A program made the position numbers and the translations under genes. Source: Cyanobacteria bacterium QS_4_48_99 (GTDB taxonomy: Bacteria; Cyanobacteriota; Cyanobacteriia; Cyanobacteriales; Rubidibacteraceae). From it: a DNA stretch of 32,509 nt. Shown in pieces: positions 6,725 to 32,011 of the stretch. How positions within the stretch are numbered: position 1 is the stretch's first letter; every line of letters begins with the position of its first letter. Under the pieces are notes generated by a model. The model was not told where the DNA came from. It made no database searches and worked only from the letters and a program-made list of their open reading frames with translations. The DNA lies in contig PXPT01000051.1 in NCBI GenBank assembly GCA_003021505.1, positions 1 to 32,509 of the forward strand. The letters are read 5' to 3'.

Positions 6725-6821
6725 AACAATTAAAAATTAAAAATTAGAAATTAAAAAATCATAAAGCTATTAGCTTCTAGTTACTAGCCCCTAGCAGCTA
6801 ATAGCTAATAGCTAATTTTGC
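6725..6821. repeat. Degenerate AT-rich repeat tract between addB-like and addA-like genes
   Basis: The tract begins with AATTAAAAATTAAAAATTAGAAATTAAAAAA-like units, then runs through overlapping copies of CTAATAGCTAATAGCTAAT and related CTAG/TTAG words. Such low-complexity heptamer-like spacers are common in filamentous cyanobacteria. A similar tract lies at 20540-20640. Confidence 0.6.
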
Positions 6822-16226: not shown

Positions 16227-16278
16227 TTTTTAATGGGTGTATTTAAATAGCGTTTTTAATGGGTGTATTTAAATAGCG
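16227..16278. repeat. Exact 26-bp tandem duplication
   Basis: The unit (core AATGGGTGTATTTAAATAGCG, preceded by five T) occurs twice head to tail at 16227-16252 and 16253-16278 without mismatch. It lies in the spacer before the first GT1 gene and may alter its upstream region. Confidence 0.95.
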
Positions 16279-16345
16279 TTCCTTGCTCCAAGCCTCCAAC
16301 TTCAGGCGGAGACAATGCGTGCATTTTGCATTTTTAATAATTAAA

Positions 16346-17644
16346 TTGCTTCGTGACTCAATCGGTATTATCTGTCCCCCTCTGCCTAGCCATATCGGTT
16401 GCATGGCGGCGTTGGGACGGGAACTACAGCAACGCAACCACCGCGTCACCTTCTTGGGGATTGCAGACATTGAATCTCAAGTGGAAGCTGAAGGTCTGCA
16501 CTTCTGGCAGATTGGTCAATCGGACCACCCACCAGGTTCAGTTTCTCAATTTCGATCGCAAATGGGAAAAATGAGCGGACTATCTGCCATGCGCTTTGCA
16601 TTTAGAACGGTTCAGCTTTCTAATGAGATGATTTGCCGCGATGCCCCAGGCGCTCTTCAAGAGGTAGGTGTAGAACTACTACTAGTTGACCAAGGCGAAC
16701 CCATGGGGGGGACGGTAGCCGAATTCCTGGATATTCCTTTTATTAGTATCTGTTGCGGTTTGCCCATTAATCGGGAAGCGAGCATTCCACCTTATTTTAC
16801 CCCCTGGCAATACCACAATAGCTGGTGGGCGCGATCACGCAATCAATTTGGTTACGCTATTTTCGACACGTTGTCCCGCTCAATTGCCAAGCAAATCACC
16901 CAAAAGCGACAACAATGGAAACTGCCCGCTTATCGCCATCCCGATGATGCCTTTTCTCAGCTTGCTCAGATTAGCCAAATACCCGCCGAATTTGACTTTC
17001 CTCACCGAGCCCTTCCAAAGTGCTTTCACTACACTGGTTCGTTTCGCAAGAGTTCCACACGGTCAGTGCCTTTTCCTTATGAACAACTAACTAACCAGCC
17101 CTTAATCTACGCTTCTATGGGCACAATCCAGAATCGCCAGCAGGAAATTTTCGACTCCATTGCCGCAGCTTGTGAAAAACTAGATGCCCAATTAGTCATT
17201 TCCCTCGGAGGCGGGGGATGCGTAGAAGACTATCAGGGACTCTCCCGAAATCCCTTAATTGTCAAGTATGCGCCTCAAATGGAGCTACTCGCCAAAGCCA
17301 GTTTAATGATTACCCACGCGGGTCTTAACACCATCTTGGAGTGCTTAGGTCATGGAGTGCCGATGGTGGCAATTCCGATTACTGGCGACCAGTTGGGCGT
17401 GGGAGCGCGCCTTGGTTGGACTGGGGCTGGAGAAGTAGTACCCCTATCGCGTTTAAGCGTCCCTAGGCTTCGGGAAGCAGTGCAACAGGTATGGGCAGAA
17501 GATTCCTATCGTCAGAATGCAGCCAAACTGAGAGAATCTATCCATCAGGCGGGTGGTGTAGTGCGAGCTGCTGATCTCGTTGAACAGGTCATCGCCACTG
17601 GGAAACCTGTCCTTGCCAGCAGAACTCAAATTCCGCAGCAATAG
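16346..17644 (+). CDS. GT1-family (CrtX/MGT-like) glycosyltransferase 1, start disturbed
   Basis: This enzyme of about 432 residues belongs to the GT1 group that glucosylates lipids, carotenoids or polyketides from UDP-sugars. The N-terminal catalytic His is in PPLPSHIGCMAALGREL. The donor-site region is YAPQMELLAKASLMITHAG, then LNTILECLGHGVPMVAIPITGDQ, all as expected. The start is odd. A GTG at 16353 followed by ACTCA aligns with the GTGACTCAC start of the next gene, but one base is missing, which puts that GTG out of frame. The readable frame has only TTG candidates, at 16346 (chosen; adds a few residues) and 16283. The stop overlaps the AGGAGG that serves the next gene, 8 nt away, so the two are translationally close. 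Identity as a GT1 is secure; present-day expression is uncertain. Confidence 0.82.
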   Translation: MLRDSIGIICPPLPSHIGCMAALGRELQQRNHRVTFLGIADIESQVEAEGLHFWQIGQSDHPPGSVSQFRSQMGKMSGLSAMRFAFRTVQLSNEMICRDAPGALQEVGVELLLVDQGEPMGGTVAEFLDIPFISICCGLPINREASIPPYFTPWQYHNSWWARSRNQFGYAIFDTLSRSIAKQITQKRQQWKLPAYRHPDDAFSQLAQISQIPAEFDFPHRALPKCFHYTGSFRKSSTRSVPFPYEQLTNQPLIYASMGTIQNRQQEIFDSIAAACEKLDAQLVISLGGGGCVEDYQGLSRNPLIVKYAPQMELLAKASLMITHAGLNTILECLGHGVPMVAIPITGDQLGVGARLGWTGAGEVVPLSRLSVPRLREAVQQVWAEDSYRQNAAKLRESIHQAGGVVRAADLVEQVIATGKPVLASRTQIPQQ

Positions 17645-18105
17645 GAGGAACCGTGACTCACATCGGCGTAATTTCTCACCAGGCGCCAAGCCATATCGGC
17701 TGTATAGCTAGCTTAGGACGGGAGCTACGACCGCGTGGTCATCGCTTCACTTTCTTCAATTTCCCCAACACTAAATCACAGGTGCTCTCAGAAGGAGTAG
17801 ATTTTTCGCCAATAGGCGAGTCCGATCATCCGCTCGGGTGGCTTGAGCAATCTCATGAAAACCAGGGAAAATTAAGTGGCATATCTGCGATTCGCTTTGC
17901 CCTAGATTCCCTCCGAAAAGCGCAGGCTGCAATATTTCGCGATTCCCCTGACGCTCTGAAAGCAGTAGGGGTGGAGTTATTGCTGGTCGATCCCGCAGTA
18001 CCGACTGGTGGGACAGTAGCCGATTTTTTAGGCATCCCCTTCATCTCCGTTTGTACTGGTATGCCTTTGAATCGGGAAGCAGGCGTGTCGCCTTATTTTA
18101 CCCCT

Positions 18106-18279
18106 TGGAATTACCACAATACCTGGTGGGCAAAATTGCGAAACCTCTGGGGATACTATTGGAATTACCACAATACCTGGTGGGCAAAATTGCGAAACCT
18201 CTGGGGATACTATTGGAATTACCACAATACCTGGTGGGCAAAATTGCGAAACAATACCTGGTGGGCAAAATTGCGAAAC
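18106..18279 (+). repeat. In-frame coding tandem repeats, 54-bp and 27-bp units
   Basis: Two exact 54-bp copies (18106-18159, 18160-18213) are followed by a 39-bp partial copy (18214-18252). An exact 27-bp repeat of that copy's last part (18253-18279) comes next. All lengths are multiples of three and the copies are essentially identical, so the duplications are recent. Confidence 0.97.
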
Positions 18280-19096
18280 CTCTGGGGGTACTATTTGCTG
18301 GATCTGCTATCCCGTCCGGTTGCTGGTGACATTGCCTTGCAGCGCCAGAAATGGAAGTTGCCTCCTTACCGTAACTTCAACGATTGCTTCTCCTCACTGG
18401 CTCAAATCTGCGAACTGCCTGCTGCTGCTGAGTTTGATTTTCCCAGAAAGGCTTTGCCAAGGTACTTCCACTATGTTGGTCCACTTAAAACACCTTCTCC
18501 TCAGGCAATTTCCTTCCCTTTCGAGCGCTTGACCGAACAACCGCTGATCTATGCCTCATTGGGAACAAGCTACGCTAACCAGGAGGATCGGCAAAATATT
18601 TTTCACCAAATTGCCGAAGCCTGCATGGATCTCGATGCCCAGTTGATTATTTCTTTGGGAGGATTAGGCCAGGTTGAGGAGTTCCCAAACCTGCCCGGTG
18701 ACCCCTTAGTAGTCGAGTATGCGCCTCAACTCGAACTTTTGGCTAAGGCAAGACTAACTATTACTCACGCTGGACCCAATACTTTACTAGAATCTCTCAG
18801 TTATGGCGTACCTGTCGTTTCCATTCCGATTGCCACGACCAACCAGCATTCGCCGCGCGTGTGTCCTGGACTGGCGTTGGTGAGGTTATCCCTCCCAAGC
18901 GGCTTAGCGTGACTAAACTTCGCGCGTTAGTAAAGCGAGTGTTGAACGAAGATGTCTACAAGAAAAATGCGGCAAAAGTGAGGGAATCTATTCGCCAATC
19001 TGGTGGGCTCACTCGCGCAGCCGATATGGTTGAGCAAGTTATTGCGACTAGAGAGCCTGTTTTTGCAGAGCAAGAACAACATAATTCGCAACTCGT

Positions 19097-19114
19097 AGTT
19101 CGTAATTACGAACT
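19097..19114. repeat. Perfect 18-bp palindrome
   Basis: AGTTCGTAATTACGAACT reads the same on both strands. It covers the last codons of the frameshifted GT1 tail, which look unlike the family (LVVRNYEL), as if a small palindromic element replaced the natural C-terminus. It could also act as a hairpin between this gene and the MFS gene. Confidence 0.85.
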
Positions 19115-19171
19115 GCCCTGATCAGGAGTAGGCAATCCCTGCCGCCCTTTTGTAAGAACTAGAGGAGTGTA

Positions 19172-20539: not shown

Positions 20540-20640
20540 ATAAATATCTTTAGTCCTTAGTCCTTTGTCATTAGTTGCTAACGCTTACAGGGTTCGACTG
20601 TTTGTTACTAATGACTAGTGACTGATGGCTAATGACTCAC
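20540..20640. repeat. Degenerate TAATGACT-type repeat tract
   Basis: The spacer between the MFS and third GT1 genes contains many overlapping words such as TAGTCCTTAGTCC, TCATTAGT, CTAATGACTAGTGACTGATGG and CTAATGACTC. It ends in AT-rich TTTAATTTTTAATTG before the start at 20664. It resembles the tract at 6725-6821. Confidence 0.55.
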
Positions 20641-20663: not shown

Positions 20664-21938
20664 ATGACCCACTTTGGCATAATTTCTCCTCCTGTTTCTG
20701 GGCACCTTAATCCCATGGCAGTTTTAGGTCGGGAATTGCAGCGGCGCGGGCATCGAGTCACTTTTTTTCATATGCCCGACATTGAATCCAAGATTCGCTC
20801 AGAAGGGCTAGAGTTCTGGTCAATTGGTCACTCTGACCATCCACCGGGCTCGCTACCCGAATCGATTGCCCAACTCGGTCGGCTCAGTGGTTTAGCAGCA
20901 CTGCGCTTTGCCATCCAAGCGATTCAAAAAACGACCAACATGATTTGCCGCGATGCGCCCAGTGCCATCAAAAAAGCAGGTGTAGAAGTATTGCTAGTTG
21001 ATCAGACTGAACCTGCTGGTGGGACAGTGGCAGAGCATTTAGGTTTGCCGTTTATTACTGTCTGCTGCGCCCTGGTAATTAACCGCGAACCAACCATTCC
21101 CCCCATTTTTACACCTTGGGGGTACAAAACTGCTTGGTGGACACAGATAGCTAATCGAGCGGGCTATTCCCTGTGGGATCGCATCACTCACCCCCTTCAA
21201 ACCGTCCTGGCTGAGTATCGGCAGCAGTGGAACCTGCCCCCCTACAAAAGCCACGACGATTCTTTTTCTAGTTTGGCTCAAATCAGCCAGCAACCTCCCG
21301 ATTTTGACTTTCCTCGGACGACTTTACCTGCCCACTTCCACTATGTCGGTCCTTTACGCGACCCATCGCCACAAGCAGTTCCTTTTCCTTATGAGCAGTT
21401 GACTGGGCAGCCACTCATCTACACTTCCCTCGGCACTCAGCAGAACACTAAAGAAGACCTGTTTGATAAGATTGCAGCAGCCTGTGAGGGGCTGGACGTG
21501 CAATTAGTGGTTTCTCATGGTGGGGGGATGAGTGCCCAAGCAGCTCAAGCGTTACCAGGCTCGCCCTTGGTAGTTTCTTACGCTCCTCAATTTGAACTTC
21601 TTTCAAGAGCCAAACTGACTATCTCCCACGCTGGTCTCAATACAGTTCTAGATTCCCTTAGTAATGGGGTTCCCCTCGTTACCATTCCGATTACTTACGA
21701 GCAACCTGCGATCGCTGCTCGCTTGCGCTGGGTAGGAGCGGGTGAAGTCCTTCCTCTCAAGCGCCTCAGTGTCTCTAGACTTAGGGCAATGGTGCTGCGA
21801 GTACTCCAAGAGGAATCCTACACCAAAAATGCCGCAAAGCTCAAAGCCTCAATTCAGCAAGCAGGCGGCGTGACGCGAGCCGCCGATTTGATCGAGCAGG
21901 CAATTTTACCCAATAGGTCACTTTTTCCTCACTACTGA
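20664..21938 (+). CDS. GT1-family (CrtX/MGT-like) glycosyltransferase 3, intact
   Basis: This 424-residue protein is the only undamaged member of the GT1 trio. It has MTHFGIISPPVSGHLNPMAV with the catalytic His of the GH motif, and GVEVLLVDQTEPAGGTVAEH with the Asp that normally partners that His. The donor-binding block is YAPQFELLSRAKLTISHAG, then LNTVLDSLSNGVPLVTIPI. The conserved Glu of the HxGxxTxxE motif is Asp here, and the terminal DQ pair is EQ. The tail RLSVSRLRAMVLRVLQEESY, then NAAKLKASIQQAGGVTRAADL, is typical. It has no strong Shine-Dalgarno and begins straight after an AT-rich repeat tract. Likely role: glycosylation of a lipid-like acceptor, possibly the product of the linked desaturase; a zeaxanthin glucosyltransferase is an alternative. 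Confidence 0.88.
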   Translation: MTHFGIISPPVSGHLNPMAVLGRELQRRGHRVTFFHMPDIESKIRSEGLEFWSIGHSDHPPGSLPESIAQLGRLSGLAALRFAIQAIQKTTNMICRDAPSAIKKAGVEVLLVDQTEPAGGTVAEHLGLPFITVCCALVINREPTIPPIFTPWGYKTAWWTQIANRAGYSLWDRITHPLQTVLAEYRQQWNLPPYKSHDDSFSSLAQISQQPPDFDFPRTTLPAHFHYVGPLRDPSPQAVPFPYEQLTGQPLIYTSLGTQQNTKEDLFDKIAAACEGLDVQLVVSHGGGMSAQAAQALPGSPLVVSYAPQFELLSRAKLTISHAGLNTVLDSLSNGVPLVTIPITYEQPAIAARLRWVGAGEVLPLKRLSVSRLRAMVLRVLQEESYTKNAAKLKASIQQAGGVTRAADLIEQAILPNRSLFPHY

Positions 21939-28541: not shown

Positions 28542-29676
28542 TTAACACTTTTCATCGAGAATTTCTTCATAAAGCTGTGCCAAACGCTGACCTTTCCTTT
28601 CCCAGTTAAATACCTCGCTGACCCGTTTCTGTCCCGCCCCTCCCATATGGCTTCGTAGTTCCGAGTCGTTAGCTAAACGAACCATCGCCTCGGCTAAATC
28701 GGGCGCTACTTGCTCGGGGGTACTTGCAGGGATTCTGAAGCCTGTTTCCTCTGTTACCTGTGAAGCCGGTCCTCCGAGATTTAGGCAGATTATCGGTCGC
28801 CCGAGCGACATCGCTTCGAGGCACACCCAGCCTCCCGAGTCATGCAGACTGGGATGAACTAGTGCCAGACATTCACCCAGCTTCTGCAAAGTTTGCTCCC
28901 GTGGCAACTTCCCCCAAAACTTCACTTGGCTAGCAATTCCCAACTCCTCAGCTAGAGCTTGCAAGCGCTCCTGTTCTGGTCCCTCGCCTAAAATCCAATA
29001 CTCAGCATCATTGGGCAAATTCGCCAGAGCAAAAGCACGGAGTCCCAAATGAAGTCCCTTCCAGTGCAAAAGTCTTGCCATACTAATAAACCGAACTGGA
29101 GAACTTTCAGGCATGGCAAACTGGGCAAGGTGCGCAATTTCTGTTTTTGATAAACCTGATTCGGAGAAAACCTGCACATTTTTTGCACCCATTTTCTGTA
29201 ATCGCTCCGCCGTATCCTTAGTCGTCGCCCGGACTAAGACACTCCGCCGTGCCGTCAAGCGAGCAAACGGGTCGCGCTCGCCTAATCGGTGAGCCAGGGT
29301 TCGCAAAGTTTCATAAACCTTTCCGCGAAACGGGAAATCTTGCCAGAAACCCCTTGGTGCAGATTCTCCGCCTCCCACTGGTCCCCAAACAAAAGGAACT
29401 GGCAGAAGCGAGAGAAAACTCGGCGAGGAATATCTGACATAAGTGACGTGATGAATGAGGTCGAAGCCCAATTCCTGATGTAGCTTCCCGGCAGTGAAGT
29501 AGGCACTCATTTGCCAGAGATAGTAGTGGAGTTGCACCAAGTTTTGTCCCTGATTCAACTGCTGCATCCACCCAGGCAACGACCAACTCGCGAACCAGGT
29601 TCCAACCCACCCCTGGCTCTGACCCCTCGCCTGGTCTACAGGCATAGGCGGAAACTAGAACCTTTAAGCACTTCAT
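28542..29676 (-). pseudogene. Family 4 glycosyltransferase with an out-of-frame N-terminal deletion
   Basis: The gene begins at ATG 29676, with GAGGA about 13 nt upstream, as MKCLKVLVSAYACRPGEGSE, then PGVGWNLVREL. This is the classic start of a widespread GT4 group. At about 29580-29590 the text jumps to SLPGWMQQLNQGQNLVQLHY in a different frame. Intact relatives, as I recall them, have roughly 30 further residues between these two blocks, so about 100 bp seem to be missing. From the original ATG the product would stop after 121 codons. A GTG/TTG start near 29645 in the second frame could give a 367-residue protein, but without the first strand and gly-rich loop. The rest is well preserved (VRFISMARLLHWKGLHLGLR, DSGGWVCLEAMSLGRPII). 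Probably inactive unless the deletion is an assembly artefact. Confidence 0.8.
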
Positions 29677-30911: not shown

Positions 30912-32011
30912 TTAACTTCCTAAAACAAATGATGTTACTTTGCCAAGAAACTTCGCTGCAGCCTCTGGGGTATACTGCGCCATTAACTGCTCTGATTTGT
31001 GACCCATTGATGCAGCTAGGTCTGGGTCATTGATAAAACGGCGCATCAACTCAGCCAGTTTGGCAGGCTCGTAAGGATCTTGCCTAAAACCATCGCTTCG
31101 AGCAATACCAGACCCCAAGTGTCTTCCAGGGTGGGGAGAACAAAAACATCAGCTTTGCGGAAGTAGGCACCCAAATGGTTGTAATCAACTCGCCCAGCCC
31201 ACTGCACGCACTTGGTCAAATCATTTTTTTGAGTGAAGTTTTCTAGTTCCTCCCGCTGCGGACCATCGCCCACAACGAGTAAGGTATAGTCCTCACATCC
31301 CTGCCGCTGGAGGATGGCGCACGCCTCCAGTAATCGGTCGAGTCCCTTCCTGGGAATAATGCCTCCTACAACAATAAACACTGGTTGCTGCAACTGGGGA
31401 AAACTGGGCTCTTCTAAGTTTCCCGACAGCGAGTTGGCAGCAGGAACCTCATAGGGTTGAACAAAAACACGACTTTCTTCTGCCTTCAGAACTTTGGTGA
31501 GATAGGCTTTGCCAGCGTGACTATTGCTGATGCAGGCATCTGCCGCCCGAACCATTGCCCGCCGCACGGCTAGACGCACTGCTGAATTGCGATAATCCAC
31601 ACTGGGTGAACTGCCTTCGTAAGCAATGACAACTTCCCATTTGCCTAGTGGCTTTGACAGCAGTGCCAACAGTGTCCACATGCCGAAGGAGTTGGAGAAG
31701 ATGACGTGGGGCTTAAATTGGAGTAATCGATTAACAATGTTGAGCGGCAGGTACGTGAAACTAGAACCATAGCCTGTTGATGCTTTCGCAAGCGGTATGA
31801 CTTTCCTCTGCCCGACGACTTCAACAGTAAATGAGTCCTCAAACCCGGAAGCGTAACCACGCCAATTTGCAGCAAAAGCGGTCATTTTTGGGAACAGCTT
31901 TGCCAATTCACTCAAAGTGGGATGCCAGTAGTAAAAGGCTGATGTTAGCAGCCATGCAATGCGAAGATCGGCATTGCTATTAACCTCAAGGCAATTTTGA
32001 ACATTTCCCAT
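30912..32011 (-). pseudogene. Family 4 glycosyltransferase with an out-of-frame C-terminal deletion
   Basis: Translation starts at ATG 32011 behind GGAGAGGA. The product begins MGNVQNCLEVNSNADLRIAW and has a good GT-B layout. FIVVGGIIPRKGLDRLLEAC opens the donor domain, with LLVVGDGPQREELENF next. FVLPTLEDTWGLVLLEAMVL holds the donor-site acidic residues. Directly after GK (about 31085) the frame changes. The expected tail (DPYEPAKLAELMRRFINDPD, then KFLGKVTSF) is found in another frame ending at 30912. Roughly 25-30 residues that normally follow LEAMxxGxP are missing, so about 80 bp seem deleted. The first frame ends after 321 codons with an unrelated tail. Probably inactive, as the donor-site floor is lost. 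Confidence 0.82.

Follow-up and report, generated by a model that had tools for sequence, protein, structure and literature searches.

Does an exact in-frame tandem array inside a glycosyltransferase gene mark an enzyme of adaptive, variable length, or a gene in decay? The question was raised by a locus in the draft genome of Cyanobacteria bacterium QS_4_48_99 (GenBank assembly GCA_003021505.1; 3.62 Mb, 196 contigs, 99.9% completeness), within a 32,509-nucleotide stretch of DNA that was analyzed as a whole (contig C51, PXPT01000051.1; here called the window). Here, we report that the array is probably a recent intragenic tandem duplication in a redundant GT1/MGT-type gene, now a pseudogene, and that no other genome searched carries it.

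The window, whose homologues mark it as cyanobacterial, contained three GT1/MGT-type glycosyltransferase genes (A, B, and C, with the array in B) and a desaturase-like gene upstream; an MFS transporter gene sits between B and C.

16283 to 17644, plus strand: paralogue A, intact, sister of gene B, single unit (domains, alignment, and tree)
17653 to 18912, plus strand: gene B, GT1/MGT-type glycosyltransferase open reading frame (ORF) as found, GTG start, 419 amino acids, with the insert, truncated by a frameshift
20664 to 21938, plus strand: paralogue C, intact, with one unit and a predicted complete GT-B fold (domains, alignment, and model)

Gene B scored above the Pfam gathering thresholds for UDPGT (53.8 bits; cut-off, 19.5) and Glyco_tran_28_C (30.4 bits; cut-off, 22). 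It missed the curated cut-off of NCBIfam MGT (TIGR01426, 260 bits) at 102.1 bits, a miss that is not special to gene B, since the intact paralogues also fell below it (157.7 and 191.4 bits). The two Pfam domains are shared with GT1/MGT-type glycosyltransferases (YojK, YjiC, OleI/OleD, and CalG1-4), as are PDB sequence and fold matches; Bacillus subtilis YojK (8h5d/7vm0) ranked first among the fold matches. The nearest solved structures were YojK and macrolide glycosyltransferases, and the fold is otherwise GT-B. Gene B differs from these enzymes in its 45-amino-acid tandem insert, which lies in the N-terminal (acceptor-side) domain, and in having no in-frame C-terminal part beyond the donor-sugar motif. 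The fetched flanks of the glycosyltransferase copies of other species showed no conserved gene neighborhood, so no hint of function came from synteny, and the search for a related plasmid returned no match. Directly upstream of paralogue A, an exact 26-bp tandem repeat (2.1 copies) occupies intergenic positions 16227 to 16280 of the window.

The array was delimited with TRF and a repeat search of the window, which gave a 54-bp period at 18105 to 18252 (2.7 copies, 100% match) and a 27-bp period at 18224 to 18279 (2.1 copies, 100% match). A preliminary description of the locus had claimed exact in-frame 54-bp and 27-bp duplications at 18106 to 18279 within a glycosyltransferase, in its N-terminal acceptor-side domain. 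The duplications and the domain, now assigned to a GT1/MGT-type GT-B enzyme, were as described; the location was right and the extent slightly short, as the last unit extends to 18293 and the whole array spans 18105 to 18293.

18105 to 18158, plus strand: 54-bp unit, copy 1 (repeat searches)
18159 to 18212, plus strand: 54-bp unit, second copy, identical to the first (repeat searches)
18213 to 18293, plus strand: third unit, 81 bp, with an internal 27-bp duplication and a synonymous GGG variant (repeat searches and codon listing)
18224 to 18279, plus strand: 27-bp tandem duplication nested in the 54-bp array, 2.1 copies, 100% match (TRF)

In total, the array adds 135 bp (45 residues) to gene B and keeps the frame throughout. 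The sole base difference among the copies is in a glycine codon (GGA in the first two copies, GGG in the last), in keeping with the earlier remark that the copies are essentially identical and the units multiples of three. With shifts of 20 to 200 bp scanned, the longest exact self-match in the array was 94 bp (shift, 54 bp), whereas six surrogates of the window, generated with a first-order Markov model, reached 10 to 13 bp. No inverted repeats near the array were found by the repeat search, nor was a second copy of the array found elsewhere in the genome by genome search.

Gene B was aligned with 68 homologues (paralogues A and C and 66 others; 69 sequences in total). One WxYxxxWWxxLRNxxGY-type unit was present in 68/68 homologues, none of which had a length change at the array site, and the insert was found in gene B only; the 45 extra residues first noted relative to the paralogues are thus extra relative to the 66 other homologues as well. 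A search of 60 related genomes gave matches in 28, the homologues mostly matching as two pieces on either side of the insert. When the repeat region was searched against 291 genomes of the order, the expanded form was found only in this genome, and the matches in 46 others covered about one unit each or were weak. Among the relatives compared, a between-species comparison, copy number at the site did not vary (one unit each); no second genome of the same genus was found among the relatives searched, and a literature search yielded no relevant report of glycosyltransferases with such repeats. The array is genuine as far as the assembly goes, and it is recent: its copies are near identical and it is absent from every relative examined, so the earlier view of it as fresh holds.

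About 540 bp 3′ of the array, at 18835 to 18836, the frame of gene B breaks, and the ORF stops at 18912 after 25 final residues unlike those of any homologue.

18835 to 18836, plus strand: frameshift site; two bases stand in place of the family's N codon in IPIANDQP, with an apparent loss of 1 nt (alignment)
18837 to 19121, plus strand: rest of the C-terminal glycosyltransferase domain, conserved, in another frame (P0001 from 18852)

The remainder (AARVSWTGVGEV...) runs in another frame with no stop until 19121 and is 58 to 59% identical to A and C. Gene B as found has neither an intact D/E-Q motif nor a complete C-terminal domain in one frame, and its last ~90 codons are out of frame. A putative 1-nt deletion affecting the N codon best explains the break; this codon belongs to the NDQ motif, and the D/E-Q pair is the donor-sugar motif of GT1 enzymes. 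A 4-nt deletion near 18847 was considered as the lesion and dropped, since a 1-nt loss at 18835 to 18836 is simpler and fits the family consensus IPIANDQP..AAR. A programmed −1 frameshift was rejected because no X XXY YYZ slippery heptamer was visible on inspection around GCCACGACC. With its reading frame disrupted relative to conserved, intact homologues, gene B is classed as a probable pseudogene. Inside the last codons of the out-of-frame remainder lies a palindrome (AGTTCGTAATTACGAACT; window positions 19097 to 19114), which has near copies at two other places in the genome and similar stretches on contigs C162, C112, and C85; it resembles a dispersed repeat that has inserted into the end of the coding sequence.

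In the tree, A and B were sisters (SH-aLRT, 97), with B the faster member of the pair (branch length, 0.62 versus 0.39 for A). Lineage-specific residues of A and B, counted with C as the outgroup, gave B-to-A ratios of 27:14 before the insert, 17:20 from the insert to the lesion, and 9:8 after the lesion; these counts suggest relaxed constraint only in the N-terminal part of gene B. Third codon positions dominate in every segment of B, both sides of the lesion included, and residues at near-invariant family positions are largely kept. As the third-position dominance persists past the lesion, gene B appears to have been constrained until recently, and the break looks recent.

The AlphaFold model of the gene B ORF as found had a pLDDT of 51 to 55 over the insert (residues 151 to 200) and 32 to 53 over the frameshifted tail. 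The model of paralogue C had a mean pLDDT of 91.8, with 92 to 96 in the N-domain region matching the insert of B; beyond the lesion point it had one strand and four helices, the part that the frame of B loses.

Recent intragenic tandem duplications in bacterial genes are microhomology or slippage events. The array in gene B resembles them in its near-identical head-to-tail copies, ~2-nt end microhomology, secondary expansion, and occurrence in one genome only, and it shows no difference of kind beyond a 27-bp unit nested in a 54-bp one. Sequence inspection found two bases in common with the alternative flank at each junction (TT for the 54-bp unit, AC for the 27-bp unit), so the founding events look microhomology mediated rather than due to slippage on an older repeat. 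In the order of events and by the mechanism that we infer, a 54-bp segment would have been duplicated via the ~2-nt TT microhomology, slippage or unequal recombination would then have brought the array to three units, and one of these would have gained the 27-bp duplication via the AC microhomology, again of ~2 nt. The slippage-type expansion originally proposed would accordingly suit the step from two to three copies, which recombination could also explain, and would not suit the founding duplications. Separately, at a time that cannot be ordered relative to the duplications, one nucleotide would have been lost from the donor-sugar NDQ motif. The product would be a C-terminally truncated protein that should neither bind the donor nor transfer sugar, and any remaining function would be carried by the intact paralogues A and C. 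We infer both this loss of activity and the absence of a sequencing error at the lesion.

Three points tell against the pseudogene reading. The dominance of third codon positions in every segment indicates constraint until recently; unit sizes of 54 and 27 both keep the frame (two independent neutral events would do so in ~1/9 of cases), so selection may still have acted on the protein when the duplications arose; and the frameshift, seen in one assembly, could be a consensus error. Were the duplication real and the frameshift a base-call or assembly error, a full-length enzyme with a 45-residue acceptor-side insert would work, perhaps with altered acceptor use. This is unlikely, even though, past the lesion, the remainder stays open up to its natural end and is conserved, with third positions dominant, the unit lengths keep the frame, and near-invariant residues are largely retained. 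The 99.9% completeness of the genome counts against widespread indel errors, if not against a single wrong base, other genes of the contig are broken too, and no homologue tolerates a length change at the array site; the low confidence of the modeled insert points the same way, although it is expected where alignment depth is missing. With an intact frame, gene B would have an unusual, naturally expanded acceptor-side region for a GT1 enzyme. The fuller proposal, in which the frameshift is an error and a full-length GT1 enzyme is made with its acceptor-side helix region rebuilt by nested tandem expansion, seems highly improbable; if true, it would be a natural experiment in acceptor-specificity change by repeat growth. 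The altered acceptor pocket that the preliminary description had envisaged would need a working enzyme, and finds no support in a gene frameshifted in its donor-sugar motif, with its last ~90 codons out of frame.

It is very unlikely that the tandem copies arose by misassembly of a single-copy gene. Short-read assemblers usually collapse repeats and seldom create them, the synonymous difference and the nested 27-bp duplication are not readily made by one misassembly, and further exact arrays are present in this genome; on the other side are the draft state of the assembly (196 contigs, one assembly of one strain) and the breaks in gene B itself and in other genes. Exact in-frame repeats within coding sequence, with a copy number that slippage or recombination could change, are also what gene B shares with length-variable surface-protein repeats and contingency loci, and copy number might tune or switch the enzyme. 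We find this scarcely credible for a globular GT1 enzyme: all 68 aligned homologues have a single unit, no expanded form was found elsewhere in the 291 genomes of the order, units that are multiples of three cannot switch the frame, and the gene is broken elsewhere. The likeness to length-variable surface loci drawn earlier is not upheld, as the product of gene B is a GT1 enzyme and no surface protein. Read as a probable pseudogene with a recent duplication, gene B is a clean example of why the whole reading frame should be checked before in-frame repeats in an enzyme are taken as adaptive length variation; it is otherwise ordinary gene decay within a cluster of redundant glycosyltransferases.

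Duplications and broken genes were also found elsewhere in the genome. The tandem-repeat background was measured on 60 stretches and the window (0.83 Mb in all), which contained eight exact arrays with a period of at least 20 bp; the commonest arrays had periods of 7 and 14. A case comparable to the array in gene B is found in an NDH-2-like oxidoreductase gene (L088, 17834 to 19261, plus strand), in which 39 bp are exactly duplicated in tandem and in frame (RSGKNAIALKNHL twice); this gene has a premature in-frame TAG at 18626, the same frame continuing after it. Within the window, frame comparison identified two further glycosyltransferase genes with disrupted frames.

28542 to 29676, minus strand: group 1 glycosyltransferase gene, apparently broken
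31046 to 32011, minus strand: group 1 glycosyltransferase ORF, ending early after LEAMVLGK

In the former, the N-terminal part (MKCLKVLVSAYACRPGEGSEPGVGWNLVREL) is in one frame and the rest (GWMQQLNQGQN...) in another, the pattern that an out-of-frame internal deletion would leave; in the latter, a C-terminal remnant (EPAKLAELMRRFINDPDLAASMGHK...) goes on in another frame. With these broken glycosyltransferases and the NDH-2-like case, gene B is in line with a wider pattern of dispensable genes that carry duplications and breaks. Homologous glycosyltransferase copies split between frames were also found in other species (L050, L052, L054, L056, and L057). The window further contains heptanucleotide tandem repeats (AATTAAA, AGCTAAT, and ACTAATG) at 6728 to 6757, 6796 to 6816, and 20607 to 20637.
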